Shown here: piece after piece, positions 4,424 to 21,465 of the stretch
How the letters are laid out: every line of letters starts with the position of its first letter
Numbering within the stretch: position 1 is the stretch's first letter
DNA from: Streptomyces sp. TLI_105
Lineage (GTDB): Bacteria > Actinomycetota > Actinomycetes > Streptomycetales > Streptomycetaceae
DNA: 64,000 nt
Assembly: GCF_900105415.1 (NCBI RefSeq)
Contig: NZ_FNSM01000001.1
Span: 7,944,001-8,008,000, forward strand
Direction: 5' to 3'
Program-made: the position numbers and the translations under genes
The notes under the pieces: model-generated
Databases searched by the model: none
What the model was told of the DNA's origin: nothing
The model's input: only the letters and a program-made list of their open reading frames with translations

Positions 4424-5824
4424 TCAGATCATCACGTGCTTGGGCCGGGTGTAGTCGAGGAGGCCGGAGAGGGACAGGTCGCTGCCGTAGCCGGAGTGTT
4501 TGACTCCGCCGTGCGGCATTTCGGAGACCGTGGTGCCGTGGGTGTTCACCCACACGATCCCGGTGTGCAGGGCCCTGGTCGCCCGCATCGCCCGGTCGTG
4601 GTCCCTGGTCCATACGCTCGCGGCCAGTCCGAAGCGTACGTCGTCGGCGAGCCGCAGCGCTTCGGACTCGTCGCCGAACGGCTGCACGGTCACGACGGGT
4701 CCGAAGATCTCCTCCTGGACGATCTCGCCGTCCTGGCGCACCCCGGCGACGACGGTGGGGGCGTGGAAGAAGCCGGGCCGCGCGGGCGGCGGGCCGCCGG
4801 CCACGATCCGGGCGTGGCCGGGCAGCCGGTCGAGCAGTGCGCGGACAGAGGCGAGCTGGGCGGCGTTGTTGAGCGGGCCGAGGTCGATGCCGGGGCGCAG
4901 TGCGCGGGCGGCGTCGGCGAGGGCGTCCAGGAAGGCGTCGTGAATGCGGGCGTGGACCAGGAAGCGGGTGGGAGCGGTGCAGTCCTGGCCCGCGTTGGAG
5001 AAGGCGACCTGGGCCAGGGCGGCGGCGGTGGCGGGGACGTCGACGTCGTCGTGGACGATCACGGGCGCGTTGCCGCCCAGTTCGAGGTGGACCCGCTTCA
5101 GTCCGGCCGCGGCCGCGGTGGCGATCTCCCGGCCGGCACGGACGCTGCCGGTGAGCGCGATCAGGGCGACGGCGGGGTGGGCGGTGAGGGCACGGCCGGT
5201 GTCGCGGTCGCCGCAGACGACGTTCAGCACGCCCGGGGGCAGGTGGGGAGCCGCGATCCGGGCGAGCAGTACCGATGAGGAGGGGGTGGTGTCGGCGGGT
5301 TTGAGGACGGTGGTGTTGCCGGCGGCGAGGGCCGGTGCGATCTTCCACGCGGCCATCATCAGGGGGTAGTTCCACGGGGTGATCTGGGCGCAGACGCCGA
5401 CCGGTTCGCGCCGCAGCAGCGAGGTGCGGCCCTCGGTGTACTCGGCCGCGGCGGCGCCCGGGAGGTTGCGGGCGGCTCCGGCGAAGTAGCGGAAGGCGTC
5501 GGCGATCGCGGGGAGTTCCTCCGTGCGGAACTGCGCCGCGGGCTTCCCGGTGTCGGCGGTCTCCGCGGCGGTCAGCTCGTCCGCGTGCGCCTCGACGGCA
5601 TCGGCGACGGCGAGCAGGGCCCGCTGCCGGTCGGCCGGGGTGGTGGCCGACCAGGACCCGTACGCGGCCGCGGCGGCCGCGCAGGCGGCGTCGGTGTCGG
5701 CGCGGCCGGAGCGTGGGGCGCGGCCGTGCACGCGCCCGGTGGCGGGGTCGACCAGCTCGGTGGTCGCGCCCGTGGCGGCGGCTCGGTCTTCGCCGCCGAT
5801 GTGGTTCAGCAGACTGTCAGCCAC
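4424..5824 (-). CDS. Gamma-aminobutyraldehyde-type aldehyde dehydrogenase
   Basis: About 466 residues of the NAD(P)-dependent aldehyde dehydrogenase superfamily. ITPWNYPLMMAAWKIAPALAAGNT, the LELGGNAP motif with general-base Glu near residue 250, and NAGQDCTAPTR with the catalytic Cys near residue 281 are intact, as is EEIFGPV. NAGQDC is characteristic of PatD/aminobutyraldehyde dehydrogenases of putrescine breakdown. It would oxidise the aldehyde made by the amine oxidase encoded just upstream to the acid. The GTG start overlaps the end of that gene by 8 bp, with GAAGGAGG inside the upstream gene, so the two are translationally coupled. It is the last gene of the leftward operon. Exact amino-aldehyde unknown. 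Confidence 0.85.
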   Translation of the reverse strand: MADSLLNHIGGEDRAAATGATTELVDPATGRVHGRAPRSGRADTDAACAAAAAAYGSWSATTPADRQRALLAVADAVEAHADELTAAETADTGKPAAQFRTEELPAIADAFRYFAGAARNLPGAAAAEYTEGRTSLLRREPVGVCAQITPWNYPLMMAAWKIAPALAAGNTTVLKPADTTPSSSVLLARIAAPHLPPGVLNVVCGDRDTGRALTAHPAVALIALTGSVRAGREIATAAAAGLKRVHLELGGNAPVIVHDDVDVPATAAALAQVAFSNAGQDCTAPTRFLVHARIHDAFLDALADAARALRPGIDLGPLNNAAQLASVRALLDRLPGHARIVAGGPPPARPGFFHAPTVVAGVRQDGEIVQEEIFGPVVTVQPFGDESEALRLADDVRFGLAASVWTRDHDRAMRATRALHTGIVWVNTHGTTVSEMPHGGVKHSGYGSDLSLSGLLDYTRPKHVMI

Positions 5825-7133
5825 GGCGCAGGGCCTCCTTCGCGGCGGCGCGGCCGGTGCGGACGGCGCCCTCCATGTAGCCGGCCACCCACTGGTCGGA
5901 TCCGCAGACGTAGAAGGGCGGTTCATGGGTGCCGTGACGGGGGCCGACGGCCATGACGTCGCCCGGAGCCCATTGCGTGACGTACCCCTGGGTCCAGGGG
6001 TCGGTGCCCCACAGGCGCAGGTGCGCGGCGCGTGGCCGGTGGGCCTGATCGCCGTACAGCCGGGCGATCTCGGCGAGGAGTTCGCGGGTGCGCAGGTGGG
6101 CGGGGGTGCCGAGCAGGACGCCGTATCGCTCGGGCGGGATCAGGGCGGACAGGACGCCGTCGCTCTGCGGCCAGGTGCTGCCCAGCACCCCTTCGCACTC
6201 GGACAGACCGCTGAGCCCCCGGTCGCGCCAGAACGGGCGGTCGTAGGCGGCGACGAACTTCGCGGCGAGGGCGTGCCGCTGGTGGTGCAGCGAGGCCAGG
6301 CGCTCCTCGCCGACGCCGGTGACGGCGAGCGAGCGCAGCGGGCCTGCGGGCAGCGCGCTGACGACGGCGGCCGCGGTGAGGGTCTCGCCGCCCGCGAGGC
6401 GCACCGAGCAACCGCCGGAGCGACGGACCACGAGCGCCTCGACGGGCGCGCCGGTACGGATTCTGCCGCCGAGCCCGGCCGCCATCCGCAGGGCCACGGT
6501 CGCCGAGCCCTCGGCCACCCGCAGGCCCTCCCAGGCCTCGTACTCGTAGTGCCCGGGGCCGGGAACGGCGGCGTGCTTGCGGAGGGCGGCGAGCAGCGAG
6601 GCGCGTTCGGACGAGCCGTCGGCGAGCGCGAGCCGGCCGATCTCCCAGAGCCGTACGACGGCCGGGCTCGCCCCCTCGTCGCGCAGCCAGCCTGCCACGG
6701 ACAGCCGGTCGAGGGCGGTGGCCTGCGGGTGGGACCAGGGGTCGTCGGGGTCGACGGTCGCGGCGAGTGCGGCGAAGGCGGCGGTGACCTTCCGATGGGA
6801 GGCGTCGTCACCGGGACCGAACCAGTGCGGCGGGTCGCCGGCGCTGACGCCTTCGGGCGTGGCGCGGGCGAGCGCGCCGGGTTCGGCGACGTAGCTGGGG
6901 ACGAGGGAGAGGCCGAGTTCGGCGACGAGGGCCGTGTACGCGGTGTGCGCCGAGCCGACCACCTCCCCGCCGAGCTGGACGAGGCGGCCGTCGGGCAGCG
7001 CGGTCTGCTCGACGCGGCCGCCGACCCGGTCGCGGGCCTCGACGACGAGGACGTCGACTCCGCCCGCGGCCAGGTCGCGGGCGGCGACGAGTCCGGCGAG
7101 TCCGGCGCCGAGCACGATGACATCGTGGTTCAC
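5817..7133 (-). CDS. Flavin-containing amine oxidase
   Basis: About 438 residues, flavin monoamine oxidase/putrescine oxidase family. It opens with the FAD-binding motif VIVLGAGLAGLVAARDLA followed by VVEARDRVGGRV, and ends with the conserved FAD-contacting block VCGSDQWVAGYMEGAVRTG. No signal peptide, so it is cytoplasmic. It would deaminate an imported amine to aldehyde, ammonia and H2O2. The start is GTG at 7133 behind CGGAGGA. It lies 25 bp after the ABC ATPase gene and overlaps the aldehyde dehydrogenase gene, so import, deamination and aldehyde oxidation are encoded as a unit. The specific amine (putrescine, agmatine or another) cannot be read from sequence. Confidence 0.85.
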   Translation of the reverse strand: MNHDVIVLGAGLAGLVAARDLAAGGVDVLVVEARDRVGGRVEQTALPDGRLVQLGGEVVGSAHTAYTALVAELGLSLVPSYVAEPGALARATPEGVSAGDPPHWFGPGDDASHRKVTAAFAALAATVDPDDPWSHPQATALDRLSVAGWLRDEGASPAVVRLWEIGRLALADGSSERASLLAALRKHAAVPGPGHYEYEAWEGLRVAEGSATVALRMAAGLGGRIRTGAPVEALVVRRSGGCSVRLAGGETLTAAAVVSALPAGPLRSLAVTGVGEERLASLHHQRHALAAKFVAAYDRPFWRDRGLSGLSECEGVLGSTWPQSDGVLSALIPPERYGVLLGTPAHLRTRELLAEIARLYGDQAHRPRAAHLRLWGTDPWTQGYVTQWAPGDVMAVGPRHGTHEPPFYVCGSDQWVAGYMEGAVRTGRAAAKEALRRG

Positions 7134-7158
7134 GGGTGTTCCTCCGGTGGGGCCGTCG

Positions 7159-8319
7159 TCAGTCCAGGACCAGGCAGTGCTCGGGCCGCCAGCCGAGCTC
7201 GACCTCCTCGCCGCCGCTCCAGCGGTCCTCCATGCGGGAGCGGGCGGTGTTCTGCTCCAGGACGTGCACGGTGACGCCGGGGGCCAGTTCGATGAGGTAC
7301 GTGGTGGTGGGGCCGGAGTAGACGGTCTCCCGGACGACGCCGGTGACCCGGGCCATGCCGGGCTCGAAGTCGGACAGCCAGATCTTCTCGGGCCGCAGCG
7401 AGAGGCTGACCCGGCTGCCGTCGGTCATGCCGGGGCGGTCGCCGACGGGAAGCGCCGGGCCCTGGTCGAGCAGCACCCGTCCGGCGCGGTAGGTGCCGGG
7501 GACCAGGTTGGAGGTCCCGAGGAACGAGGCGGTGAAGCTGCTGGTGGGACGCTCGTACACGTCCTCCGGAGTTCCGCACTGCTCGATGCGGCCCTCGTTC
7601 ATGACGGCGAGGCGGTCCGACATGGTCAGGGCCTCGTCCTGGTCGTGGGTGACGAACAGGAAGGTGATGCCCACCTCGCGCTGGATCTGCTTGAGCTCGA
7701 CCTGCATCCGACGCCGGAGCTTCAGGTCGAGGGCCGCCAGCGGCTCGTCGAGCAGCAGCACCTGCGGACGGTTGACCAGGGCGCGGGCGAGGGCGACGCG
7801 CTGGCGCTGGCCGCCGGAGAGGGTGGGCGGCCTGCGGCCGGCCAGGTCGCCGAGCTGCACGAGGTCGAGCATCTCGGCGACCCGGCGACGGATCTCGGGG
7901 CGGGCGACGCCCTTGCGCTTGAGGCCGAAGGCCACGTTGTCGGCGAGGGACAGGTGGTCGAAGAGGGCGTAGCTCTGGAAGACGGTGTTGACGTTGCGCC
8001 GGTGGGGCGGGAGACCCGTCACGTCCTCCCCGTCGAGCAGGACGCTGCCCTCGGTGGGGTCGGCGAAGCCGCCGATCATGCGCAGCATGGTGGTCTTGCC
8101 GCAGCCGGAGGGACCGAGCAGGGAGAAGAACTCGCCGGGGGCGATGTCCAGGCTGATGTCGTGGACGGCGTACGAGGCGGAGCTGCCGGAGCCGCCGGGG
8201 TAGCGCTTGCCGACCCCGTCGAGCCGGACAGCGGGGTGGGGGAGCACGGCTTGCGGTTGCGGGGATCGCGCGGTGCGTGGCGTCTGCGGGGGCGTGGGTT
8301 GCGAGGTCATGGCGTTCAC
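7159..8319 (-). CDS. potA: PotA-like ABC transporter ATP-binding protein
   Basis: About 386 residues. Walker A GPSGCGKTT is at about 69-77, the signature LSGGQRQRVALARAL and Walker B LLLDEPLAALD follow, and the H-loop FVTHDQDEALTMSD is intact. The C-terminal third is the TOBE/MalK-like regulatory domain (LSLRPEKIWLS). This matches the spermidine/putrescine (PotA) ATPase class. The GTG start at 8319 shares a GTGA overlap with the permease stop, which argues for coupled translation. It would energise the two PotB/PotC-type permeases encoded directly upstream. Confidence 0.9.
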   Translation of the reverse strand: MNAMTSQPTPPQTPRTARSPQPQAVLPHPAVRLDGVGKRYPGGSGSSASYAVHDISLDIAPGEFFSLLGPSGCGKTTMLRMIGGFADPTEGSVLLDGEDVTGLPPHRRNVNTVFQSYALFDHLSLADNVAFGLKRKGVARPEIRRRVAEMLDLVQLGDLAGRRPPTLSGGQRQRVALARALVNRPQVLLLDEPLAALDLKLRRRMQVELKQIQREVGITFLFVTHDQDEALTMSDRLAVMNEGRIEQCGTPEDVYERPTSSFTASFLGTSNLVPGTYRAGRVLLDQGPALPVGDRPGMTDGSRVSLSLRPEKIWLSDFEPGMARVTGVVRETVYSGPTTTYLIELAPGVTVHVLEQNTARSRMEDRWSGGEEVELGWRPEHCLVLD

Positions 8320-9152
8320 TTCCCGGAGAGCAGGTCGAGGCCGCCGCGCCGGCCGAACAGGCGCGGGATGGCGAGGGCGAGGGCGACGAGTCCGACGGAG
8401 CCGGCCAGCATCAGCGTGCCGATGGCGTTGACGGTGGGCTGGACGCCGAACCGGATGGCCGAGTAGATCCGGACCGACAGGGGCTGCGGATCGACGCCGG
8501 TGGTGAAGTAGGCGAGGACGAAGTCGTCGAAGACCAGGGCGAAGACGAGGACGGCGGAGGCGAGGATGCCGGGGAGCAGCGCGGGCAGCGTCACCAGCCG
8601 TACGGCCTGCCGGCGGGTGGCCCCGAGGTCCATGGCCGCCTCCTCGATCTCCGGGTTGAGGGCGGCGACGCGGGAGCGCAGGATCACCGTCACGTAGGAG
8701 ATGGAGAAGGTGATCTCGGCGAGCATCACGGTCGTCGTGGACAGGGTGATGCCGAGGCCCTTGAACAGGAGCATCGCGGCGACGCCGGTGACGATCTCCG
8801 GGGTGATGAGCGGGACGAGCATCACCAGTCCGGCGAAGGAGCCGAGCCGGCTGCGGCCGCGGACCAGGCCGAGCGCGAGGGCGACGCCCAGCGCCACCGA
8901 GCCGGCCATGGCGACGAGGGAGACCCGCAGGCTCATGCCGAGCGAGTCCAACAGCACGTCGTCGCGGAGGAACGCCCCGTACCAGCGCAGGCTGACGTCG
9001 TCGAAGACGGTCAGGGACTTCTGCGAGTTGAACGAGAACAGGACGACGACGCCGATGGGGACGTAGAGCAGCGCGAAGAAGACGGCGGTGACGGCGATGG
9101 CGAACCGGGGACGGCGTTCGGCGCCGCGGCGGCGCCCGCGGGCGGCCCTCAT
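8316..9152 (-). CDS. potC: PotC-like ABC transporter permease
   Basis: About 278 residues. Membrane segments begin with AIAVTAVFFALLYVPIGVVVL, and the ABC inner-membrane motif EEAAMDLGATRRQAVRLVTLP (EAA loop) sits in the second half; FDDFVLAYFTTG is typical of PotC/polyamine permeases. The ATG overlaps the upstream permease stop as ATGA (9149-9152). The reading frame stays open far upstream through the neighbouring gene, but that part is a shadow. It pairs with PotB to form the channel. Confidence 0.9.
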   Translation of the reverse strand: MRAARGRRRGAERRPRFAIAVTAVFFALLYVPIGVVVLFSFNSQKSLTVFDDVSLRWYGAFLRDDVLLDSLGMSLRVSLVAMAGSVALGVALALGLVRGRSRLGSFAGLVMLVPLITPEIVTGVAAMLLFKGLGITLSTTTVMLAEITFSISYVTVILRSRVAALNPEIEEAAMDLGATRRQAVRLVTLPALLPGILASAVLVFALVFDDFVLAYFTTGVDPQPLSVRIYSAIRFGVQPTVNAIGTLMLAGSVGLVALALAIPRLFGRRGGLDLLSGK

Positions 9153-10039
9153 CGGACCGCCTCCGCCTCGTCCTTGCGGGCGCGCCGCAGGTAGCCGAGC
9201 ATGCCGAGGAAGAGGACGGCCATCAGGAGCATGGTGAGGGCGGAGCCGAGCGGCCAGTTCTGGCCCTGGAAGAACTTGTCCTGGATCAGGTTGCCGATCA
9301 TGATCTGGTCGGGGCCTCCCATGAGCTGGGCACTGACGAAGTCGCCCATGGCGGGCAGCAGGACGAGGACGCAGCCGGCGGCCGCCCCCTGCCGGGTGGC
9401 CGGGACGGTGACGAACAGGAAGGTCCGCAGCGGATCGGCGTACAGGTCGCGGCCGGCCTCGACGAGCGAGGTGTCCATGCGCTCCATGGCCGCGTAGAGC
9501 GGGATGATCATGAAGACGACGAAGCCGTAGACGAGACCGGCGACGACGCCCGCGCCGGTCTGCAGGATCCGGGTCCCCCCGTCGGCGAGTCCGATGGCGC
9601 GCAGCGCCCTGAGCAGCGGTCCGTCGTCGGACAGGACGACGGACCAGCCGTACATCCGCACCAGGTAGTTGGCGAAGAACGGGACGACGATCGCCGTGAT
9701 CAACAGGTTCTTGTACCGGCCGCCGCTGGTCGCGATGGCGTACGCGACGGGGTAGGCGACGACCAGACAGACGGCGCAGGTGACCAGGGCGTAGCCCAGC
9801 GACCGCAGCAGGACCGTGCGGTACGCCGGGTCGGCCAGGGCCGTGATGTTGTCGAGGACGAACCCGAAGCGCGGATTGCCGAGCGGGTCGGTGGTGCCGA
9901 ACGCGAGGGTGGCCACCAGGATCAGGGAGGCGACCAGGAAGACGGTCATCCAGAGCGTGCCGGGGAGCATCAGCCAGGTCCACAGACGTTCCCGGACCGG
10001 CTTTCTGCCGGCGCGTGGGGGACGGGCGGCGTCGGCCAT
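9149..10039 (-). CDS. potB: PotB-like ABC transporter permease
   Basis: About 296 residues. A cytoplasmic N-terminus (KPVRERLWTWLMLPGTLWM) leads into the first membrane helix, and the EAA loop reads EAGRDLYADPLRTFLFVTVP. FFANYLVRMYGW and GDFVSAQLMGGPD are blocks shared with polyamine permeases of the PotB family. It starts one base after the stop of the binding-protein gene and overlaps the PotC-like gene, fixing the operon order binding protein, PotB, PotC, PotA. Confidence 0.9.
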   Translation of the reverse strand: MADAARPPRAGRKPVRERLWTWLMLPGTLWMTVFLVASLILVATLAFGTTDPLGNPRFGFVLDNITALADPAYRTVLLRSLGYALVTCAVCLVVAYPVAYAIATSGGRYKNLLITAIVVPFFANYLVRMYGWSVVLSDDGPLLRALRAIGLADGGTRILQTGAGVVAGLVYGFVVFMIIPLYAAMERMDTSLVEAGRDLYADPLRTFLFVTVPATRQGAAAGCVLVLLPAMGDFVSAQLMGGPDQIMIGNLIQDKFFQGQNWPLGSALTMLLMAVLFLGMLGYLRRARKDEAEAVR

Positions 10040-10040
10040 G

Positions 10041-12694: not shown

Positions 12695-12716
12695 GCTGAC
12701 CGATTGGACAGTCAGC
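12695..12716. promoter_or_regulatory. Degenerate third copy of the TetR-type site
   Basis: GCTGAC-N10-GTCAGC with the internal sequence CGATTGGACA resembles the two perfect palindromes 40-90 bp to the right and shares CTGACCGATtGG. It lies nearer the Rieske oxygenase start and may be a weaker operator for the leftward operon. Confidence 0.4.
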
Positions 12717-12751
12717 GTGGTGGCTGAATTCCGCCGGGTCAAGACTTGTAC

Positions 12752-12769: not shown

Positions 12770-12784
12770 TAGCTTGGTTATTGC

Positions 12785-13088: not shown

Positions 13089-13730
13089 ATGAGTGGTCGT
13101 CGGCGTCTGGACTGGCTCGGGCTCACCCCCGAGCCGGAGCGGGAGCTGCCCGCAGCCGTCGCCGCGCTGCGTGCCTCCCTCGGCACGGCGCACCACCCGC
13201 CGCCGGGCCGGGCCGAACTCGCGGCCGCCGAGCGGCGCCGGGTGGAACGCCTGGTCCTGCGGGGCAGCCGGCACAGCTGGTTGCGCTACCTCACCGAAGC
13301 CACCGCGCTGGTGACCGCCGTGGCCCTCCGGCTCGACGAGCAGGGCGGCAAGGACCGCCAAGCGGACACCGACGCGGACATGAAGGCGGACGCGGACACG
13401 AGAGCCGGCGCGGGCACGGACACACGAGCCGACGCGGATACGCGAGCCGACTCGGACGCGAACACGCGAGCCGATCCGGACGCGAACACGCGAGCCGATC
13501 CGGACGCGGACACGCGAGCCGATGCCGACACGGACGTCTCGACCGCAGCCGCGCTGCTCGCCGCCGAGGTGATCCTCGATCACCACCGCATGCTCATCGG
13601 CCTGCCAGGAGCGGGATACGGCCGCACCGCAGGGGACCGCGCCGCGCTCGAAAGCGCGCTACGGCTCCTGCGCACCCGGTCCCGTACCGCCGGAACCGCC
13701 CCCACCGCCCGTACAGGAGACGGCAGATGA
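13089..13730 (+). CDS. Hypothetical protein with an internal Asp/Ala/Thr/Arg repeat
   Basis: About 213 residues; I do not recognise a family. The N-terminal half (residues 1-95) is ordinary helical sequence (RLVLRGSRHSWLRYLTEATALV), residues about 99-146 are an octapeptide repeat of the form DANTRADP, and the rest (AAALLAAEVILDHHRMLIGLP) is helical again. Apart from the repeat it is a small basic soluble protein. ATG at 13089 follows CCGGAGG; its TGA overlaps the next ATG (ATGA), so it is coupled to the NuoF-like gene and is the first gene of the rightward operon. It may be a small subunit or assembly factor of the NuoF-like flavoprotein; this is inference from position only. Confidence 0.7.
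   Translation: MSGRRRLDWLGLTPEPERELPAAVAALRASLGTAHHPPPGRAELAAAERRRVERLVLRGSRHSWLRYLTEATALVTAVALRLDEQGGKDRQADTDADMKADADTRAGAGTDTRADADTRADSDANTRADPDANTRADPDADTRADADTDVSTAAALLAAEVILDHHRMLIGLPGAGYGRTAGDRAALESALRLLRTRSRTAGTAPTARTGDGR
13383..13526 (+). repeat. 24-bp coding minisatellite, six units
   Basis: Six units of 24 bp in frame inside the hypothetical gene. The units at 13455-13478 and 13479-13502 are identical; the others diverge by a few bases. Each encodes eight residues ending in the TRA(D) theme. The 24-bp period keeps the frame, so copy number can change without breaking the protein. Confidence 0.85.
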
Positions 13731-15217
13731 CCCGCAGCCGCCACTCGACCCCGAGCCACCCCCCGACCACCAGCCGCCCCTCGACCACCATCCGTTACCC
13801 GACCGCCCCCGCGCCGGGTTCCGTGCTGGGCGCGACGCCCTGCTCCACGGAGAACGCCGAGGCGTACGAGGCCACCGGCGGCTACGCCGCCGCCGTCACC
13901 CCCGACGAGCTGCTGCACCACCTCGACGCCTGCGGTCTGCGCGGCCGCGGCGGCGCCGGATTCCCGGCCGCCGTCAAGCTCCGCACCGTCCGCGAGCACG
14001 GGCGACGCGGCCGGGGGAGCGGGACGCGCGGCGAGCGCGCCGCAGGTGCCGGCACCCCGGTCGTGGTGGCCAACGGGGAAGAGGGCGAGCCCGGTTCGGT
14101 CAAGGACCGCTGGCTGCTGCGGGCCCGCCCGCACCTGGTCCTCGACGGCCTCGTCCACGCGGCAGCGGTCACCGGCGCCGAACACGGCTACGTCTACCTC
14201 TCCGATCCGGAGGCGGCCCGCCGCGTCCGCCGAGCCCTCGCCGAACGCGTACCGCCGCTGCCCGTCGAGGTCGTCGAGACCGCCGCCGCCTATGTCGCCG
14301 GTGAGGAGACCGCGGTCGTCCGCCGGATCGACGGCGGGCCGGCCCTGCCGACCGCCAAACCGCCCCGTCCCTTCGAGCGGGGCGTCCGGGGCGCGCCGAC
14401 CCTGGTCGCCAACGTCGAGACCCTCGCCCGGATCGCGCTCGTCGCCGCCCGGCCCGACCTGCGCGAGCCGATCGCGCGCTCCACCCTGGTCACCCTCTCG
14501 GGCGGCAGCGTCGCACCTGTGCTCACCGAGGTGCCGTACGGGGTCCCCCTGCGCACCCTCGCCGCCGCCCACGGCACCCCGGCCCCGGTCGGCGCCCTGA
14601 TGGGAGGTCTCTTCGGCGGGCTCGTCGACGCCCGCGCCCTGGACCTGCCCCTCGAACCCGGCGCACTCGCTGCCGCGGGCACGGCGCTCGGCTGCGGAGC
14701 GATCCGCTTCCTCGCCGCCGACGTCTGCCCGGTGGGCGCCGCCGCCGACGCGGTCGGTCACCTCGCGGCCGAGAGCGCACGGCAGTGTGGCGTCTGCGTG
14801 TCGGGCTCGGCCGCGATCAGCGACGCTCTGGACCGCCTCGCCTCCGGATCCGCCGAACCCGACACTGCTGAGCGGCTGCACCGATGGGCGCGAGGACTGC
14901 CCGGGCGGGGAGCGTGCGGGCTGCTGGACGCCGCCGCCGGCCTCGCCGGAAGCCTGCTGCGGGTCTTCCCGGCACAGGTCAGGGCCCATCTCGACGGGCC
15001 CTGCCCGGTATGCCGGGCCGACGCCCCCGCCCGGGACCCGCACCGCCTGACCCGCCTGACCGTTCCGGTGCCGACCGTGCGCGCACCCGCCCCGACCGGA
15101 TCTGACCCGATCGCATCTGCCCCGACCCCGTCCGCTCCGACCCCGTCCGCTCCGGCCGCATCCGCCCCTACCACGCCCGCCGAGCCCAGGGCCGCCGTAC
15201 TGGAAGGAACGTCATGA
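13727..15217 (+). CDS. NuoF-like NADH-binding iron-sulfur flavoprotein
   Basis: About 496 residues, related to the 51-kDa (NuoF) subunit of complex I and to formate/hydrogen dehydrogenase flavoproteins. GLRGRGGAGFPAAVKL is the FMN/NADH-binding glycine-rich motif, VVVANGEEGEPGSVKDR matches the NuoF NADH site, and the SLBB-like and 4Fe-4S region follows (QCGVC then GACG). NuoF usually has C-x2-C-x2-C near the C-terminus; here the spacing differs. The last 40 residues are a Pro/Ala/Ser/Thr tail with a duplicated 15-bp unit. No other Nuo subunits are near, so it is not part of complex I; it could pass electrons from NADH to the adjacent ferredoxin. ATGA overlaps on both sides. Confidence 0.8.
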   Translation: MTRSRHSTPSHPPTTSRPSTTIRYPTAPAPGSVLGATPCSTENAEAYEATGGYAAAVTPDELLHHLDACGLRGRGGAGFPAAVKLRTVREHGRRGRGSGTRGERAAGAGTPVVVANGEEGEPGSVKDRWLLRARPHLVLDGLVHAAAVTGAEHGYVYLSDPEAARRVRRALAERVPPLPVEVVETAAAYVAGEETAVVRRIDGGPALPTAKPPRPFERGVRGAPTLVANVETLARIALVAARPDLREPIARSTLVTLSGGSVAPVLTEVPYGVPLRTLAAAHGTPAPVGALMGGLFGGLVDARALDLPLEPGALAAAGTALGCGAIRFLAADVCPVGAAADAVGHLAAESARQCGVCVSGSAAISDALDRLASGSAEPDTAERLHRWARGLPGRGACGLLDAAAGLAGSLLRVFPAQVRAHLDGPCPVCRADAPARDPHRLTRLTVPVPTVRAPAPTGSDPIASAPTPSAPTPSAPAASAPTTPAEPRAAVLEGTS

Positions 15218-15402
15218 AACTGCTGCTGGACGCCACGCTGTGCAACGGCTACGGCCTCTGCCAGGAGAACGCCCCCGAACTCGTCGAGCTCGACGAGTGG
15301 GGCTACGCGAAGGTCGTCGTCGACGTGCCGCCCGCTGCCGAGGACCGGGCCCGCGCCTGCGCGGAGAGCTGCCCCAACTCAGCCCTGCGCGTGGAGGGAT
15401 GA
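15214..15402 (+). CDS. [3Fe-4S] ferredoxin
   Basis: 62 residues, a single-cluster ferredoxin of the actinobacterial P450/oxygenase type. CNGYGLC near residues 10-16 supplies two ligands and CAESCP near the C-terminus another; the missing Cys in the first motif (C-x5-C rather than C-x2-C-x2-C) points to a 3Fe-4S cluster. Such ferredoxins normally donate electrons to oxygenases or acyl-CoA enzymes. Its ATG overlaps the stop of the NuoF-like gene (ATGA), and the next gene starts two bases after its stop. A ferredoxin beside a NADH-oxidising flavoprotein is a plausible chain to the Rieske enzyme. Confidence 0.9.
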   Translation: MKLLLDATLCNGYGLCQENAPELVELDEWGYAKVVVDVPPAAEDRARACAESCPNSALRVEG

Positions 15403-15403
15403 G

Positions 15404-17473
15404 ATGACGCGTGAGCTGACCTCGCTCTTCGACCCCGGATCGGTCGCCGTGGTCGGCGCCAGCGACGACCCGGCGAAGTACGGCCACGCGGTGGCCGCCC
15501 AGGCCCTTCGCGCGCCCGACCGGCGGCCCGTCCACCTGGTGAACCGGCGCGGCGGCACCGTACTCGGCCGGACGGCGGCCACCTCCCTCGCCGAGATCGG
15601 CGAGCCGGTCGACCTGGTGGTGATCTCCGTACCCGGCACCGGTTTCGAGGCGGCCGTCGACGACGCCCTCGCCTGCGGGGCGAAGGCGATCGTCGCCATC
15701 ACCGCCGGCTTCGCCGAGGCCGGCCCCGCCGGTCTCGCCCGCCAGCGGGCCGTCGCCGAGCGGGTCCGGGCCGCCGGAGCCGTGCTCGTCGGCCCCAACT
15801 GCCTGGGCATCGCGGACAACACCACCGAGCTGTACCTGGCCTCGGACCGGTTCGCGCCCGGTCGAGTCGCCCTGCTCAGCCAGAGCGGCAACCTGGCCCT
15901 CGAACTCCAGCTGCGCGGCGCCCCGCACGGCCTCGGATTCTCCCGTTTCGTCTCGCTGGGAAACCAGGCCGACGTCACCCTCGTCGACCTCGTCGAGGAC
16001 TGTGCCCACCACGAGCCCACCTCCGTGATCGCCGTGTACGCCGAGGACTTCGGCGACGGCCGGGCCTTCGCCCGCGCCGCCGCCGAGGCCGGCAAGCCCG
16101 TGGTCCTCCTCACCGCCGGCCGCGGCGCCGCCTCGGCCCGCAGCGCCCGGTCGCACACGGGGGCACTGACCACCTCGGCCGGCGTGGTGGCCGCGGCCTG
16201 CCGCGACGCGGGTGTCGAACTCGTCCGCACCCCACGGGAGATGACCGTGGTGCTCGCCGCCCTGGCCGGCGGGCGGCGCACGACCGGACGGCGGACCGCG
16301 GTCCTCACGGACGGCGGCGGCCACGGCGCGGTCGCCGCCGACGCCGCCGAGGACGCCGGGCTCGACGTGCCCGAGCTCGGCGCCCCGGCCCAGGACCGGC
16401 TGCGGAGCGTGCTGTGGGAGCAGTCCGCCGTCCGCAACCCGGTCGACCTCGCCGGCATGGGGGAGCGGCGCCCCCTCTCGTACGCCGACACCGTCCGCGA
16501 GCTGCTGGCCGCCGACGAGGTCGACGCCGTCCTGATGACGGGCTACTTCGGCGGGTACGCCGCCTCCGAAGGCGGCCTGGGCGGCGGGCCGGCCGGCGGC
16601 TCCGTCCTCGCCGAGGGCGAGCAACGGGCCGCGAAGGAGATCGCCGGACACCTCGCCGCCACACCGAAGCCGCTGGTCGTGCAGTCCATGTACCCGGAGT
16701 CGCCCAGCTGCCGGGCGCTCGCGGAGGCCGGCGTCCCGGTGTTCGCCGCCACCGAGGACGCGGCCCGCGCCCTCGCCGCGCTGACCGGCCGCGCGGCGGG
16801 CGCTCCGGCCGGGGTGGCCGCGCCGCCGCCGGTCGCGGCACCCCTGGGGGACCCCTCGTACCACGGTGTGCGGGCGCTGCTGGCCACGGCCGGAGTGCCC
16901 TTCCCACCGGCCCGGGAGATCACCGACGAGGCCGGGCTGCTCGCCGCTGCCGCCTCGTTCGAGGGGCCGTACGTCCTGAAGGCCCTCCACGTCCTGCACA
17001 AGTCCGACGCCGGCGGGGTGGCGCTGCGGCTCGCCGACCGGGACGCGCTGCTGGCCGCGTACCGGCGGATGCACGCCCGCCTCGACGCCCCGTCGTACTC
17101 GGTCGAGGCCATGGCGGACCTCTCGGACGGTGTCGAACTGATCGTCGGCGTCCAACGCGACCCCCGGTTCGGCCCGGTGGCGATGGTCGGCCTCGGCGGG
17201 GTGCTCACCGAGACCCTGCGGGACGTGGCCTTCGCCCTCGCGCCCGTGGCCGCCGGTTCCGCCGAGAAGCTGCTGAGGGGGCTGCGGACCGCCGCCCTGC
17301 TCGACGGTGTGCGCGGCCGGCCCGCCGTGGACGTGACGGCGGCCGCCGCTGTCATCGCCCGCGTCACCGAGGTCGCCACGGCCCACCCGGAGATCGCCGA
17401 GCTGGAGGTCAACCCGCTCCTGGTACGCCCGGACGGCGCCATCGCGCTGGACGCACGAGCCGTCCTCGGCTGA
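15404..17473 (+). CDS. NDP-forming acyl-CoA synthetase (CoA-binding plus ATP-grasp)
   Basis: About 689 residues. Domain order is CoA-binding Rossmann domain (SVAVVGASDDPAKYG, residues 10-130), succinyl-CoA ligase-like domain with the phospho-histidine motif RSHTGAL near residue 250, and a C-terminal ATP-grasp domain from about 480 (GPYVLKALHVLHKSDAGGV, LEVNPLLVRPDG). This is the single-chain acetate-CoA ligase (ADP-forming) architecture also used for other organic acids. It would activate the acid made in the pathway to an acyl-CoA for the dehydrogenases encoded next. Chain-length specificity cannot be read. It is followed by 108 bp before the first dehydrogenase gene. Confidence 0.88.
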   Translation: MTRELTSLFDPGSVAVVGASDDPAKYGHAVAAQALRAPDRRPVHLVNRRGGTVLGRTAATSLAEIGEPVDLVVISVPGTGFEAAVDDALACGAKAIVAITAGFAEAGPAGLARQRAVAERVRAAGAVLVGPNCLGIADNTTELYLASDRFAPGRVALLSQSGNLALELQLRGAPHGLGFSRFVSLGNQADVTLVDLVEDCAHHEPTSVIAVYAEDFGDGRAFARAAAEAGKPVVLLTAGRGAASARSARSHTGALTTSAGVVAAACRDAGVELVRTPREMTVVLAALAGGRRTTGRRTAVLTDGGGHGAVAADAAEDAGLDVPELGAPAQDRLRSVLWEQSAVRNPVDLAGMGERRPLSYADTVRELLAADEVDAVLMTGYFGGYAASEGGLGGGPAGGSVLAEGEQRAAKEIAGHLAATPKPLVVQSMYPESPSCRALAEAGVPVFAATEDAARALAALTGRAAGAPAGVAAPPPVAAPLGDPSYHGVRALLATAGVPFPPAREITDEAGLLAAAASFEGPYVLKALHVLHKSDAGGVALRLADRDALLAAYRRMHARLDAPSYSVEAMADLSDGVELIVGVQRDPRFGPVAMVGLGGVLTETLRDVAFALAPVAAGSAEKLLRGLRTAALLDGVRGRPAVDVTAAAAVIARVTEVATAHPEIAELEVNPLLVRPDGAIALDARAVLG

Positions 17474-17581: not shown

Positions 17582-18751
17582 ATGGACTTCCGCTACACCC
17601 CCGAGCAGACCGAGCTCAAGGCGCGCGCCGCGGCCTACACGCGGCTCCTGATGCGGTACGAGGAGCAGTCCGAGGAAGCGGGCGGCCCGCTGCCGGCCGA
17701 CACCGTGCGGGAGCTGACCCGGGCCGCGATCGACGCCGGCGTCTACGCCGTCAACATGCCCGCCGAGTGGGGCGGCGCCGGACTCTCCCTGCTGGACCAG
17801 GTGATCGTCGAGGAGGAGTTCGGCAAGGTCACCAACTGCCTTTGGGACATTCCCTGGCGGCCCGCCAACGTCCTCGCGTACGGCACCGAGGCACAACGCG
17901 AGAAGTACCTGCTGCCGGTGATCCGCGGCGAGCGCTTCGACGCCTTCGCCGTCACCGAGCCCGGGGCCGGATCCGACCCCGGCTCGGGCACGAGCACCGC
18001 GACCCGCACGGTGGGCGGCTGGCTTCTGAACGGCGAGAAGTGGTTCGTCACCTGCGGCGACATCGCCGACTTCCTGCTGGTGCAGGCCGATGCCGGGCCG
18101 GACCGCGCGGCGACGCTGTTCTTCGTCGACAAGCAGGCGCCGGGGGTCGAGATGACGCGGGTCCCCCGTTTCATGCACTCCGCGGTGAACGGGCACCCCG
18201 AGTTCCGGTTCACCGACGTCTTCGTGCCCGACGAGGACGTGCTCGGCGGCGTCGGCAACGGCTACCAACTGACGAAGGAGTGGTTCACCGACGAGCGGCT
18301 GATGATCGCAGCCCGGACCGTCGGCGCCGCCGAGAGGGCCCTGGAACTGGCGCGTGACTGGGCCGTCGGACGCCGTCAGTTCGGCTCCCGCATCGCCGAC
18401 TTCCAGCTGATCCAGGGGATGCTCGCCGACTCGGCCGTCGACATCGCCGTCAACCGCGCCTACACCCACCAGGTCGCCTGGGAGGCCGACCGGCCCCAGA
18501 CCGACCGCAAGACCCTGCACGCCAAGGCCTCCACGGCGAAGCTCGCGGCGAGCGAGGCCGCCGGTCGGGTGGTCGACCGGTGCCTGCAGATCTTCGGTGG
18601 GCGCGGCTACGACCGCTCGTACCCCGTCGAGCGTCTCTACCGCGAGCTGCGCGTCGACCGGATCTGGGAGGGCACCTCCGAGATCCAGCGGCTGATCATC
18701 GCCAACGAGCTGATCAAGCGCGGCACCGGGGCGCTGGCCCTGCCGCGCTGA
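17582..18751 (+). CDS. Acyl-CoA dehydrogenase 1
   Basis: 389 residues, the usual length of the family. It has the FAD/substrate-binding block FAVTEPGAGSDPGSGT, GEKWFVT, the FGSRIADFQLIQGMLADSAVDI helix and the C-terminal QIFGGRGYDRSYPVERLYRELRVDRIWEGTSEIQR, with the catalytic Glu in IWEGTSEIQ. It would introduce the first double bond of beta-oxidation. ATG at 17582 follows GGAGGAG. Residues from about 250 to 373 are nearly identical at DNA level to acyl-CoA dehydrogenase 2 downstream, while the first 245 residues differ clearly. The substrate is unknown. Confidence 0.92.
   Translation: MDFRYTPEQTELKARAAAYTRLLMRYEEQSEEAGGPLPADTVRELTRAAIDAGVYAVNMPAEWGGAGLSLLDQVIVEEEFGKVTNCLWDIPWRPANVLAYGTEAQREKYLLPVIRGERFDAFAVTEPGAGSDPGSGTSTATRTVGGWLLNGEKWFVTCGDIADFLLVQADAGPDRAATLFFVDKQAPGVEMTRVPRFMHSAVNGHPEFRFTDVFVPDEDVLGGVGNGYQLTKEWFTDERLMIAARTVGAAERALELARDWAVGRRQFGSRIADFQLIQGMLADSAVDIAVNRAYTHQVAWEADRPQTDRKTLHAKASTAKLAASEAAGRVVDRCLQIFGGRGYDRSYPVERLYRELRVDRIWEGTSEIQRLIIANELIKRGTGALALPR
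18331..18702 (+). repeat. Near-identical segment shared with 19621-19992
   Basis: About 372 bp of the first acyl-CoA dehydrogenase gene repeats at exactly +1290 bp in the second. Only scattered changes occur, mainly around 18484-18503 and 18530-18560, whereas sequence before 18331 is far more diverged. The sharp boundary is best explained by gene conversion after duplication. Confidence 0.85.
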
Positions 18752-18874: not shown

Positions 18875-20047
18875 ATGGACTTCCGTCTCACCGCACGCCA
18901 GCAGGAGCTCAAGGAATCGGCGCGTGACCTCACCGACTTCATCATGAAGCACGAGCTCGACTGCGAGGAGAACAACGGTCTGCCGCCGCAGGTCCACGCC
19001 GAGATCCGCGACGCCGTCCTCGACAGCGGCCTCCAGGCCGTCAACATGCCGGCCGAGTGGGGCGGCGCCGGACTCACCGTCCCTGAGCAGGTCGTCGTCC
19101 AGGAGGAACTGGGCCGGCTCACCGGCGCCCTGTGGGACATGGTGTGGCGGCCGGCCAACGCCCTCTCGCACTGCACGCCCGAGCAGCGTGAGCGGTACCT
19201 CGTGCCCGTGATCCACGGGCGCCGACGCGACTGCTACGCGGTCAGCGAGCCCGAGGCCGGCTCCGACCCGCAGAACCTGCGCACCACCGCGACCCGGACC
19301 GCCGACGGCTGGGTGCTGAACGGCGAGAAGTGGTTCGTCACCGTGGGCGACCACGCCGACTTCATGATCGTGCTCGCCGCCGCGGGGGAAGAGCGGGCGC
19401 CGACGCTGTTCCTCGTGGACAAGGACGCCCCGGGCATCGAGATGACCCGGGTGCCCCGCTGGATGCACACCTTCGTCTACGAACACCCCGAGTTCACCTT
19501 CACCGACGTACGCCTGCCCGAGGACGCGGTGCTCGGCGGCGTCGGCAACGGCTACGACCTCACCCGCTCCTGGTTCTCCGAAGAGCGGCTGATGATCGCC
19601 GCCCGCACGATCGGGGCCGCCGAGAGGGCCCTGGAACTGGCGCGTGACTGGGCCGTCGGACGCCGTCAGTTCGGCTCCCGCATCGCCGACTTCCAGTTGA
19701 TCCAGGGGATGCTCGCCGACTCGGCCGTCGACATCGCCGTCAACCGCGCCTACACCCACCAGGTCGCCTGGGAGGTCGGCGAGGGCCGAACCGACCGCAA
19801 GACCCTGCACGCGAAGGCCGCGATCGCCAAGCTCGCGGCGAGCGAGGCGTCCGGTCGGGTGGTCGACCGGTGCCTGCAGATCTTCGGTGGGCGCGGCTAC
19901 GACCGCTCGTACCCCGTCGAGCGTCTCTACCGCGAGCTGCGCGTCGACCGGATCTGGGAGGGCACCTCCGAGATCCAGCGGCTGATCATCGCGGGCGAAC
20001 TCGTCAAGCGCGGGACGGGTGTCCTGCAGCTGCCGGTGACCCCGTGA
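18875..20047 (+). CDS. Acyl-CoA dehydrogenase 2
   Basis: 390 residues, paralogue of the preceding gene. CYAVSEPEAGSDPQNLRT, GEKWFVT and the C-terminal IWEGTSEIQRLII catalytic segment are intact. The N-terminal and middle parts differ from paralogue 1 at many positions (for example MVWRPANALSH against IPWRPANVLAY), so acyl pockets could differ, while the FAD and dimer-forming C-terminal part is almost the same. The two may form a homo- or heterotetramer. ATG at 18875 follows AGAGGA at a distance. The stop overlaps the GTG of the broken 3-hydroxyacyl-CoA dehydrogenase gene (GTGA). Confidence 0.92.
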   Translation: MDFRLTARQQELKESARDLTDFIMKHELDCEENNGLPPQVHAEIRDAVLDSGLQAVNMPAEWGGAGLTVPEQVVVQEELGRLTGALWDMVWRPANALSHCTPEQRERYLVPVIHGRRRDCYAVSEPEAGSDPQNLRTTATRTADGWVLNGEKWFVTVGDHADFMIVLAAAGEERAPTLFLVDKDAPGIEMTRVPRWMHTFVYEHPEFTFTDVRLPEDAVLGGVGNGYDLTRSWFSEERLMIAARTIGAAERALELARDWAVGRRQFGSRIADFQLIQGMLADSAVDIAVNRAYTHQVAWEVGEGRTDRKTLHAKAAIAKLAASEASGRVVDRCLQIFGGRGYDRSYPVERLYRELRVDRIWEGTSEIQRLIIAGELVKRGTGVLQLPVTP

Positions 20048-20756
20048 GCGACCCCGCCCGGGTGGGGATCACGGGCTGCGGGCTCATGGGCTCCGGCATC
20101 GCCGAGGTCCGCGCCCGCGCCGGCCGCGACGGCGTGGTGGTGGAGGACGAGCGGACGAAGACCGAGGTCTTCGCCCGGCTCGACGCCGTCGTGGAGCGCC
20201 GGGACGCCGTACTGGCGACCGACACCTCGTCCCTGTCCGTCATCAGGCCGGCGGCCGCGACCTCGCGGCCGTCCCAGGTCATCGGACTGCACTCCTTCCA
20301 CCCGGCGCCGCGGCTGCCGCTGGTGGAACCGGTGCCCTCGCTGCTCACCGGTGAGGACACCGTCCGGCGCGCGGGGCCTTCGCCACCGAGGTCCTCGGCA
20401 AGGAGGTCGTGCACCCCCGGGACCGTGCGGGGTTCGTCGTCAACGCCCTGCTCATGCCGTACCTGCTGACAGCGGTACGGATGGCCGAGTCCGGTGCGGC
20501 GTCGGCCGAGGACATCGACCGGGCCATGACCTTGGGCCACGCCCATCCGCTCGGCCCGCTCGCCCTTGCCGACCTGATCGGTCCGGACACGGGGCAGGCC
20601 ATCGCCCGGTCGATGTACGCGGAGTACCGCGAGCCGCTGTACGCCCCGTCGCCGCTGCCGGCTCGGATGGTGGAAGCGGGGCGGCTCGGCCGGAAGACGG
20701 GTCGGGGCTTCCACCCGTACCCGGGGCGCCTGGCGGGGCAGGATGGGCAGGGATGA
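20044..20756 (+). pseudogene. 3-hydroxyacyl-CoA dehydrogenase, broken
   Basis: Starts with the Rossmann motif VGITGCGLMGSGIAEV and continues with TEVFARLDAVVERRDAVLATDTSS, then after a frame change with the C-terminal domain RAGFVVNALLMPYLL and GLGRKTGRGF-like sequence. Two lesions are visible. First, about 60-65 residues of the Rossmann fold are missing in frame between two VVVE-type stretches (around 20140). Second, one base is missing near 20371 (CGGCGCGCGGGGCC where a 21-base run is expected), moving the frame. NTSS is also DTSS and HFFNP is HSFHP, so catalytic motifs have decayed. The usual length is about 285-290 residues; the activity must be supplied by another gene. Confidence 0.8.
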
Positions 20757-20772
20757 TGGTCCGGGACGGAGA

Positions 20773-20844
20773 CCGAAACCGAAACCGGAACCGGAACCGG
20801 GACAGGGGCCGATACCGAGACCGATGCCGACACCGAAAGCGGGA
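20773..20844 (+). repeat. Hexanucleotide tract (CCGAAA/CCGGAA), 12 units
   Basis: Twelve consecutive 6-bp units, most of the form CCGNNA, fill the space between the broken hydroxyacyl-CoA dehydrogenase gene and the TetR start, ending 9 bp before the GTG. In the TetR frame it would encode alternating Lys/Glu-Pro residues, so a start upstream of it is less likely than GTG 20854. Confidence 0.75.
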
Positions 20845-20853
20845 GTTGCCGAC

Positions 20854-21465
20854 GTGACCAAGGCCGAGCGCGCACTCGAGACACGGGAGCGAATCCTCAA
20901 GGCCGCGTGCGAGGTGATCGCGGACATCGGGTTCGAGAACGTCAGCATGCGCAAGGTCGCCGAGCACGCGGGGGTGTCGAAGGCGCTGCTCCACTACCAC
21001 TTCGACACCCGCGAGAAGCTCTTCGCCGAGGCGATGACGCACTCGTTCGCCCAGACCGGCACGGACCTCGACGGCGGCGACGCCGACGTGTCGGCCGGCG
21101 TCCTGCTCGCACGCATCGTGCGCACCATGCTGCCCACGGACGAGGAGCTGCGCCAGGACTGGAAACTGTGGCAGGAACTGTGGGTGCGCGCACAGCGCGA
21201 CGACGCAGCCCGGCACCTCGCCGTCGACCTGTACGACCAGCTCCACGCCTGGGTCGGCGGCGCGGTGGAACGCGGCGTCGCGTCGGGAGAGTTCGCCCCC
21301 TGCGATGTCGCCGCGATCAGCACTCTGATCCTGGCGCTGTGTGACGGCCTGGGCATTCGCGTGATGCTCGCCGACCCACATGTCGACCTGCCCACGGCCC
21401 AGTCGACGATCTGGTCGGCCATCGCCCCGTCACTGGGCATCTCTCCCGCCTTCCCTGAGGCCTGA
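20854..21465 (+). CDS. TetR-family transcriptional regulator
   Basis: About 203 residues. The N-terminal helix-turn-helix is clear: RERILKAACEVIADIGFENVSMRKVAEHAGVSKALLHYHF, then a helical ligand domain (LWQELWVRAQRDDAARHLAVDLYDQL, TLILALCDGLGIRVML). SKALLHYHF is the usual TetR recognition helix. GTG at 20854 follows GGGAG. It is the last gene of the rightward operon, and the twin TGACCGATCGGTCA palindromes at 12752-12800 are its probable operators. An acyl-CoA or an amine-derived intermediate could be the inducer; this is inference. Confidence 0.9.
   Translation: MTKAERALETRERILKAACEVIADIGFENVSMRKVAEHAGVSKALLHYHFDTREKLFAEAMTHSFAQTGTDLDGGDADVSAGVLLARIVRTMLPTDEELRQDWKLWQELWVRAQRDDAARHLAVDLYDQLHAWVGGAVERGVASGEFAPCDVAAISTLILALCDGLGIRVMLADPHVDLPTAQSTIWSAIAPSLGISPAFPEA

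Follow-up and report, generated by a model that had tools for sequence, protein, structure and literature searches.

What would a bacterium degrade with a polyamine-type importer, a Rieske oxygenase and acyl-CoA enzymes grouped around one divergent promoter? This question is raised by an island of 15 genes in Streptomyces sp. TLI_105, located at positions 4424-21465 of the window, i.e., the 64,000-nucleotide stretch of contig NZ_FNSM01000001.1 (7,944,001 to 8,008,000) that was analysed. Seven genes point leftward and encode, from the promoter outward, the Rieske oxygenase, PotD-, PotB-, PotC- and PotA-like proteins, a flavin amine oxidase and an aldehyde dehydrogenase (ALDH). The eight rightward genes specify ORFX, a NuoF-like protein, a ferredoxin, an acyl-CoA synthetase (ACS), two acyl-CoA dehydrogenases (ACADs), a broken 3-hydroxyacyl-CoA dehydrogenase (HCDH) and a TetR regulator. 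The first-pass annotation had described this two-armed arrangement and every gene it named is indeed there, but its list missed ORFX and the broken HCDH, with which the count comes to 15. That the island constitutes a single pathway is well supported. We cautiously lean towards an inducible route that degrades a polyamine-like cation substituted on nitrogen: the Rieske enzyme would cleave a C-N bond, and both halves would be catabolised.

The Rieske oxygenase and its companions

The first gene of the minus arm (11338-12597, minus strand; PF00355 and PF00848) encodes a Group-V-like Rieske oxygenase with a bridging Glu (E215) and a Tyr (Y213). It possesses the CxH and CxxH cluster ligands and the 2-His-1-carboxylate iron site of this enzyme class; C91/H93, C111/H114, H218, H223 and D346, which we presume from their positions to be the ligands, are invariant across 15 aligned sequences (the TLI_105 protein and 14 relatives), and so are the Glu bridge and the Tyr. 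CntA is the best sequence match among solved structures and occupies ranks 1-13 of the fold matches at about 26 % identity, with quaternary-ammonium demethylase entries at ranks 14-16 and 18. Y213 and E215 line up with CntA Y203 and E205, which bears out the earlier assignment to the Glu-bridged type. According to PMC7948474, Tyr203 of CntA is a pi-cation contact, and clade Va of group V is defined by the bridging Glu together with an aromatic residue at position 203; the island protein has both of these quaternary-amine hallmarks. The CxxC pair beside the iron is absent from it (G216 and V219 in the alignment of 15), a pair that PMC10952381 ascribes to “some Group V” enzymes and hence not to all. 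Glycine betaine monooxygenase GbcA is the best NCBIfam match, far below its cut-off (equivalog NF058607, 133 vs 670 bits). Since, in addition, the catalytic half remains unaligned to CntA in phmmer, the pocket chemistry of these enzymes is not transferable to the island protein. Among the 120 Rieske matches listed, named relatives are mostly called “aromatic ring-hydroxylating” and some “choline monooxygenase” or “Rieske 2Fe-2S family”. The gene context argues against the first of these names.

Whereas CntA is paired with CntB, no CntB-type FMN/2Fe-2S reductase was detected among the island proteins scanned; the island Rieske enzyme is instead accompanied by ORFX, the NuoF-like protein and the ferredoxin, as well as by polyamine-type genes. 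ORFX (about 13089-13730, plus strand, start inferred) belongs to no known family; it is a conserved, helical protein with the motif WLxLTPExE, and the TLI_105 copy carries a 24-bp repeat insert. The NuoF-like flavoprotein (about 13727-15217, plus strand, start inferred; PF01512 and PF10589) shares the Complex1_51K and NADH_4Fe-4S domains with respiratory NuoF, the NADH-binding subunit of complex I. However, it stays below the cut-off of the respiratory model (159.3 vs 558.65 bits), its neighbours are a small ferredoxin and the Rieske oxygenase, and the third Cys of its CxxCxxC motif is replaced by Gly in 25/25 relatives aligned there, further Cys being conserved. The ferredoxin (15214-15402, plus strand), recognised from its sequence, displays a three-Cys pattern that we take to be typical of P450-type 3Fe-4S ferredoxins.

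Uptake, amine oxidation and acyl-CoA genes

The PotD-like binding lipoprotein (10041 to about 11171, minus strand, start inferred within an ORF extending to 11543; PF13416) has putrescine/spermidine-binding proteins as its nearest PDB chains, even though it fails the PotD equivalog NF007048 (138 vs 582 bits). Its residues D62, E197 and D285, invariant among 27 PotD-like relatives, align with Glu36, Glu171 and Asp257 of E. coli PotD, to which PMC4096761 assigns polyamine contact roles. Because all three contacts are thereby acidic in the island protein, with Asp rather than Glu at position 36, the sequence favours a polyamine-like cation over a simple alkylamine as the substrate. The importer is completed by a PotB-like permease (9149-10039; PF00528), a PotC-like permease (8316 to about 9152, start inferred; PF00528 in the ORF 8316-9983) and a PotA-like ATPase (7159-8319), all on the minus strand; the latter exceeds the cut-off of TIGR01187 (368.1 vs 355.6 bits) and fails that of the PotA equivalog NF006987 (380.8 vs 482 bits).

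Further along the same strand, the flavin amine oxidase (5817-7133; PF01593) resembles putrescine oxidases, its best PDB matches being 3rha and 2yg6. Its E314 is invariant in 28 relatives and, in the phmmer alignment, is offset by one from Glu324 of Rhodococcus Puo, presumably the distal-amine Glu of that enzyme. The arm ends with an aminobutyraldehyde-dehydrogenase-like ALDH (4424 to about 5818, minus strand, start inferred; ORF to 5926), which narrowly passes NF010000 (616.9 vs 615 bits), fails the equivalog TIGR03374 (474 vs 909.3 bits) and has the gamma-aminobutyraldehyde dehydrogenase 6c43 as its best PDB match. Transporter, oxidase and ALDH are thus of the same families as in actinobacterial putrescine oxidation (PotABCD, Puo and aminobutyraldehyde dehydrogenase), but here they are tied to genes for a Rieske oxygenase, an acyl-CoA synthetase, acyl-CoA dehydrogenases and a TetR regulator.

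On the plus strand, the acyl-CoA synthetase (15404-17473) is of the ADP-forming type, with CoA-binding, Succ_CoA_lig and ATP-grasp domains and an SHTG motif invariant in 29 aligned relatives. It is followed by the two acyl-CoA dehydrogenases (17582-18751 and 18875-20047, both PF00441/PF02770/PF02771) and by the HCDH gene (20044-20756), which in TLI_105 is split over two frames and lacks part of the NAD-binding (N-) domain, whereas relatives carry intact copies. Among the island ORFs scanned, neither an enoyl-CoA hydratase nor a thiolase was matched by Pfam, and the idea of a complete route to beta-oxidation had to be abandoned.

Regulation and conservation of the island

The regulator (20743-21465, plus strand) combines PF00440 with a BetI-type C-terminal domain (PF13977) and fails the BetI equivalog cut-off. 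Three operator-like palindromes lie between the arms at 12697-12710 (two mismatches), 12754-12767 and 12786-12799, with exact copies nowhere else in the TLI_105 genome. Similar palindromes occur in 21/30 orthologous divergent gaps and none in the other 9/30, by a pattern that was framed after some relatives had been inspected. To judge from sequence, the TetR protein may bind these shared palindromes.

Conservation was assessed over 31 loci with a Rieske orthologue, gene presence being scored by set identity limits. All 15 genes are present in 15 of these loci and all except HCDH in seven more, so that the island gene set does recur, in large part intact, in other actinobacteria. ORFX is found in 30 loci, TetR also in 30 (at one of two positions), the ferredoxin in 29, ACS and each of PotA, PotB and PotC in 28, PotD and the amine oxidase in 27, the ALDH, the NuoF-like protein and each ACAD query in 26, and HCDH in 17. 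The putative electron chain is not universal: the three Mycobacterium-type loci are devoid of NuoF, and L036 of both NuoF and ferredoxin. In one Mycobacterium locus (L033), the amine oxidase and ALDH are accompanied by an NMT1-type transporter in place of the Pot genes.

Of 150 family genomes, 18 have the Rieske gene, 19 ORFX and 17 the amine oxidase, and the three go together; the association of the first two gives a Fisher p = 2e-22 with kinship ignored. Homologous loci devoid of Rieske and acyl-CoA genes had been named beforehand as evidence against a single pathway. In the 150 genomes, the sole amine-oxidase locus without Rieske is G119, where the contig breaks exactly at that place; two Rieske loci, L112 and L111, however, depart from the full set. 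L111 lacks the amine oxidase and has one ACAD. L112 has TetR, Rieske, ORFX, NuoF and ferredoxin together without Pot, amine oxidase, ALDH or acyl-CoA genes in the 19.9 kb examined, an arrangement which suggests that these five form one unit.

ORFX extends to the distant actinobacterial loci L037, L041, L042, L045, L047 and L173. Four of them (L041, L042, L045 and L047) show the order TetR-Rieske-ORFX-ACS-ACAD-ACS, with neither NuoF nor ferredoxin scoring >50 bits and no Pot or amine oxidase homologue >50 bits in the stretch examined. L173, where the Rieske protein is 31 % identical, combines it with ORFX, ACAD, ACS, HCDH, TetR, two amine oxidases and PotA, and the association of amine-side genes with Rieske recurs in both L037 and L173. 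In the Oxalobacteraceae locus L098, the neighbours of a Rieske relative (33 % identical) are PotDABC, an agmatinase that passes the cut-off of its model, a PuuD-like hydrolase that misses its own, an FAD oxidase and an ALDH; for ORFX, NuoF and ferredoxin, this locus yields no homologue scoring >50 bits. In its gene content, L098 resembles proteobacterial Puu/agmatinase-type clusters; in contrast to these, no Puu-type glutamyl chemistry is apparent among the scanned island genes.

A candidate pathway and its alternatives

The pathway that we infer, from its electron chain and the partnership of ORFX with the Rieske enzyme to the C-N cleavage, the order of steps and the substrate, would run as follows. 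A TetR repressor on the repeated palindromes would keep both arms off until the inducer arrives, and PotDBCA would import the polyamine-like cation. The CntA-like oxygenase, helped by ORFX and receiving electrons from NADH via the NuoF-like flavoprotein and the 3Fe-4S-type ferredoxin, may hydroxylate the carbon beside the substituted nitrogen, such that the C-N bond breaks to yield an amine and an aldehyde. The amine half would pass to the putrescine-oxidase-like enzyme and then the ALDH, while the carbon-chain half would be oxidised to an acid, activated by ACS and dehydrogenated by the two ACADs; hydration, thiolysis and, in TLI_105, the HCDH step would have to be supplied from elsewhere. 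The conserved gene set, its co-occurrence, the shared palindromes and the Rieske Glu and Tyr support a single, jointly regulated pathway that handles a cationic amine, as first proposed. A more specific version is a tentative possibility: a multi-component Rieske system (CntA-like enzyme, ORFX, NuoF-derived NADH flavoprotein with altered cysteines and 3Fe-4S ferredoxin) that splits N-alkylated polyamines, the amine half going to amine oxidase and ALDH and the acyl half to CoA ligation and beta-oxidation. Neither such a pathway nor such a Rieske electron chain was found in the literature searched.

Alternatively, the substrate could be a betaine or another quaternary amine from which a CntA-like Rieske enzyme releases trimethylamine or a methyl group, with ALDH, ACS, ACADs and HCDH acting as in gamma-butyrobetaine/carnitine CoA metabolism. 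The proximity to CntA in sequence and fold, the sub-threshold GbcA match, the Tyr at the pi-cation position (PMC7948474), the BetI-type domain of a regulator that is no BetI equivalog and the HCDH of 17/31 loci are all in keeping with this. We nevertheless consider it unlikely, as the PotD-like protein retains acidic residues suited to several amino groups, a betaine would offer no obvious task to a primary-amine oxidase or an aminobutyraldehyde-type dehydrogenase, and both the CxxC pair and, among scanned genes, a CntB-type reductase are missing. An improbable variant invokes a guanidino compound (agmatine or an N-alkylguanidine), which amine oxidase and ALDH would convert to a guanidino acid before the Rieske enzyme splits off guanidine via carbon hydroxylation. 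Agmatine would suit PotD-like transport, guanidinium could also sit on the Tyr, and L098 does contain an agmatinase; but this is one locus with a Rieske protein only 33 % identical, and no ureohydrolase or guanidinase family match exists among the island proteins scanned.

Two unrelated pathways might also share the promoter, one to the left for polyamine uptake and oxidation and one to the right that processes some acid by Rieske and acyl-CoA enzymes, as the four distant loci without Pot or amine oxidase homologues >50 bits and the locus L112 could indicate. This is quite improbable: the Rieske gene itself leads the arm with the Pot genes, some 166 bp ahead of the inferred start of PotD, no amine oxidase without Rieske was found in the 150 genomes apart from the one assembly break, and the association returns in L037 and L173. 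Ordinary putrescine/spermidine catabolism, of which Pot, Puo-like and aminobutyraldehyde-dehydrogenase-like genes are the usual parts, with Rieske and acyl-CoA genes as passengers, is very improbable, given that passengers would not persist in at least 26/31 loci and that the host has a separate polyamine-type locus at 2.404-2.424 Mb (PotD/PotA/PotB, two ALDH and an aminotransferase gene).

If confirmed, the pathway for an N-substituted polyamine-like cation would represent a new bacterial way of using polyamine-like amines, and an oxygen-dependent route to compounds closed to ordinary polyamine pathways. It would also mean that a complex-I-derived NADH module can power Rieske oxygenases through a P450-type ferredoxin. 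ORFX, a small family accompanying the oxygenase in 30/31 orthologous loci, offers a clear handle on this system.

Gene content and order of the island

All genes that the first-pass annotation had named at 4424–21465 of the window were recovered from ORF lists, third-position GC and Pfam/NCBIfam scans, and two island genes missing from its list were added. These code for ORFX, a conserved helical protein (about 13089–13730, + strand), and for a 3-hydroxyacyl-CoA dehydrogenase (HCDH). The two arms start from a divergent promoter at about 12.6–13.0 kb of the window, in a genome of 8.88 Mb. The left arm comprises seven genes in the order Rieske oxygenase (11338–12597, − strand), PotD, PotB, PotC, PotA, flavin amine oxidase and aldehyde dehydrogenase (ALDH), while the eight genes of the right arm encode ORFX, a NuoF-like protein, a ferredoxin, an acyl-CoA synthetase (ACS) of the ADP-forming type, two acyl-CoA dehydrogenases (ACADs), a broken HCDH and a TetR regulator. 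Among the matches listed, the nearest named relatives of the Rieske gene come from Streptomyces.

Decay is evident in the HCDH gene (20044–20756) at the right-arm end, which is split over two frames and has lost part of its NAD-binding domain. An ORF of at least 287 aa is found in 13 of the 15 relatives listed. Since the island also has no hydratase or thiolase genes, and in this genome no intact HCDH, the earlier description of the locus as a "complete route" was too strong.

A gene for an Imm49-family immunity protein (3280–4404) directly adjoins the left end of the island. Further along the window, at 52055–54469, a family 59 glycosyl hydrolase (galactocerebrosidase type) carries a ricin-B-type lectin domain and has a family 2 glycosyl hydrolase as its neighbour.

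Conservation, co-occurrence and probable shared control

The island is one unit, on the evidence of locus conservation, genome co-occurrence and a shared region of operator-like palindromes. An orthologue of the Rieske protein (53–89 % identity) was found in 31 loci, whose hosts include Streptomyces, Streptacidiphilus, Couchioplanes, three Mycobacterium-type records and an uncultured actinobacterium. ORFX and TetR are present in 30 of them, the ferredoxin in 29, ACS and PotA, PotB and PotC in 28, PotD and the amine oxidase in 27, ALDH, NuoF and each ACAD query in 26, and HCDH in 17. The full fifteen genes exceed the limits in 15 of the 31 loci, and seven more are missing only HCDH. These limits were 50 % identity for Rieske, 35 % for ORFX and TetR, 40 % for the ferredoxin and 45–60 % for the others, so that ALDH in L033 and L035 (41–42 %) and ACAD in L036 (50 %) were scored absent. 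L032, with fragmented ACADs, was scored as lacking both, L111 was scored for both ACAD queries on its single ACAD gene, and genes past the contig ends of the short contigs L024 and L108 count as absent. The set combines L020–L036 (17 of 79 loci; L037 was excluded) with L099–L112, which stem from 14 of the 18 Rieske-bearing genomes of the host family; the other four are the window's own genome and three with contigs matching loci of the 79-locus set. Near-duplicate strains were otherwise kept in the counts.

Among 150 genomes drawn from the host family, 19 have ORFX, 18 have Rieske and 17 have the amine oxidase. G119 alone sets the first two groups apart: its two island contigs break off exactly where Rieske is expected, between PotD and ORFX. 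In Fisher tests that ignore kinship between the genomes, Rieske and ORFX co-occur with p = 2e-22, Rieske and the amine oxidase with p = 2e-18. In two Rieske-bearing genomes, G030 (locus L112) and G037 (L111), the amine oxidase was not found at the search threshold. L112 retains only TetR, Rieske, ORFX, NuoF and ferredoxin among the island genes in the 19.9 kb fetched, and this reduced set gives the clearest hint that the five form a unit. At larger scales, Rieske is found at E ≤ 1e-70 in 8 of 394 genomes of the class, and ORFX in 4 of 396 genomes of the phylum, with Rieske adjacent in all four. Among the papers listed by literature searches, none dealt with this gene set.

In the putative control region between the arms (12697–12799), the palindrome TGACCGATCGGTCA occurs twice without mismatch and once as a near match. 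In the 64 kb window, three sites occur at up to two mismatches against a shuffle mean of 0.40; this number was reached in 2 of 100 shuffles. Exact sites are confined, genome-wide, to the inter-arm gap. A wider regulon was rejected: the sole additional genome site within one mismatch, at 97,662, has no relatives of island proteins among the ORFs called in the surrounding 4 kb. Of 30 orthologous divergent gaps, 21 contain a degenerate form of the palindrome, which was defined after inspection of the window and some of the relatives; it has 35 sites there in total, against an average of 0.06 over 200 mononucleotide shuffles. A pair of sites 57 bp apart, as in the window (12697 and 12754), is seen in 11 of these 30 gaps. 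The TetR gene stays with the island at one of two positions, either at the right-arm end or between Rieske and PotD (e.g., L023 versus L030), and HCDH at 50 % identity or more is found in loci with TetR at the right-arm end, plus L032 and L036. We infer that TetR binds the candidate sites between the arms.

The Rieske oxygenase and its probable partners

By sequence, the closest solved chain to the Rieske protein is the carnitine monooxygenase CntA, followed by other group V-type and aromatic oxygenases, with only residues 21–245 matched. The best NCBIfam model, GbcA, is far from reached (133 bits against a cut-off of 670). In a search with the predicted fold (pLDDT 83.4), ranks 1–13 are CntA entries and ranks 14–16 and 18 are entries for a quaternary-ammonium (stachydrine) demethylase. 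Tyr213 and Glu215 align to Tyr203 and Glu205 of CntA and do not vary among the 15 sequences aligned, which are the window protein and 14 relatives with identities as low as 32 %. Section 6 of PMC7948474 describes the tyrosine at this position of CntA as a pi-cation contact to the ammonium group and the mark of clade Va. Two differences from the CntA/CntB system count against full group V membership, however: the island protein lacks the CxxC pair that an excerpt of PMC10952381 reports for some group V members, and no CntB-type reductase is seen in the island. A ring-hydroxylating role was rejected on the group V Glu and Tyr, the fold list led by CntA and the demethylase, and the Pfam scan, which matched no ring-cleavage family among the island proteins.

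The putative electron supply consists of the NuoF-like protein and the ferredoxin. The former falls far short of the respiratory NuoF model (159.3 versus 558.65 bits). Its FMN and NADH motifs look intact, judging by the sequence; where its cluster motif should have a third Cys there is a Gly, as in all 25 relatives aligned at that point, and other cysteines are conserved. The ferredoxin has 62 residues and a three-Cys pattern, which we take to be typical of P450-type 3Fe-4S ferredoxins. Since the NuoF-like gene is absent from the three Mycobacterium-type loci, and both NuoF and ferredoxin from L036, another electron supply must serve in those loci.

ORFX is about 115–140 residues long, is invariant at its W, L.LTPE, G and WL..L positions, and is predicted to form a five-helix bundle (pLDDT 81.6) for which a fold search gave no PDB match at E ≤ 0.001. 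The window copy matched no Pfam family, and the sole match of three orthologues, to DUF3103 in one of them, was at chance level (E 0.26). A search yielded 425 relatives; the named ones among the 120 listed are hypothetical or uncharacterised proteins. The window copy contains an in-frame minisatellite of 24-bp units (13347–13550; DADTRADP-like) between two conserved blocks. By eye, 19 listed relatives are free of this repeat, and some have other low-complexity inserts. ORFX also directly follows a distant Rieske gene in L041, L042, L045 and L047, in the order TetR-Rieske-ORFX-ACS-ACAD-ACS. In L037 it lies near Rieske with TetR in between, and in L173 it faces, across a divergent gap, a Rieske gene of only 31 % identity. 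The records of L041, L042, L045 and L047 are titled Actinobacteria/Thermoleophilia; that of L041, where LUD/CCG-type genes come next, bears the title Bifidobacterium breve (MAG) and is suspected to be a mislabelled bin.

The putative substrate

Several components point to a polyamine-like compound. PotA scores above its polyamine subfamily cut-off and ALDH barely above that for aminobutyraldehyde dehydrogenase; the PotD-like protein remains below the PotD equivalog cut-off. The amine oxidase has its closest matches among putrescine oxidases. Glu324 is presumably the distal-amine Glu of the Rhodococcus putrescine oxidase; no paper was found for this residue in the literature search. Asp62, Glu197 and Asp285 of the binding protein occupy the positions of Glu36, Glu171 and Asp257 in PotD, which a passage of PMC4096761 gives as contacts to the amino groups of spermidine. 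Loci with distant Rieske genes have polyamine-type neighbours, namely PotDABC, ALDH, an FAD oxidase, a PuuD-like hydrolase and an agmatinase above its cut-off in L098, and varied Pot, ALDH, ACS, amine oxidase, aminotransferase or BKACE genes in L040, L044, L052, L055 and L059. An uncontrolled count gives at least two Pot homologues in 10 of the 62 distant loci (L037–L098). Taken together, the acids of PotD type, the PotA and ALDH scores, the kinship of the amine oxidase and these neighbours favour a polyamine-like cation as the probable substrate. Because a CntA-like oxygenase is needed together with a CoA ligase and dehydrogenases, the gene set suggests that the substrate nitrogen would bear a carbon substituent and that cleavage of the compound would give one amine and one acyl part.

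A conventional polyamine locus as the whole story was rejected, as the host has separate polyamine-type genes at 2.404–2.424 Mb. There, relatives of PotD, PotA and PotB, two ALDHs and a class III aminotransferase are found with unrelated genes interspersed; no PotC was picked out in this region. Given this second locus, the island is an addition to the host's other polyamine-type genes.
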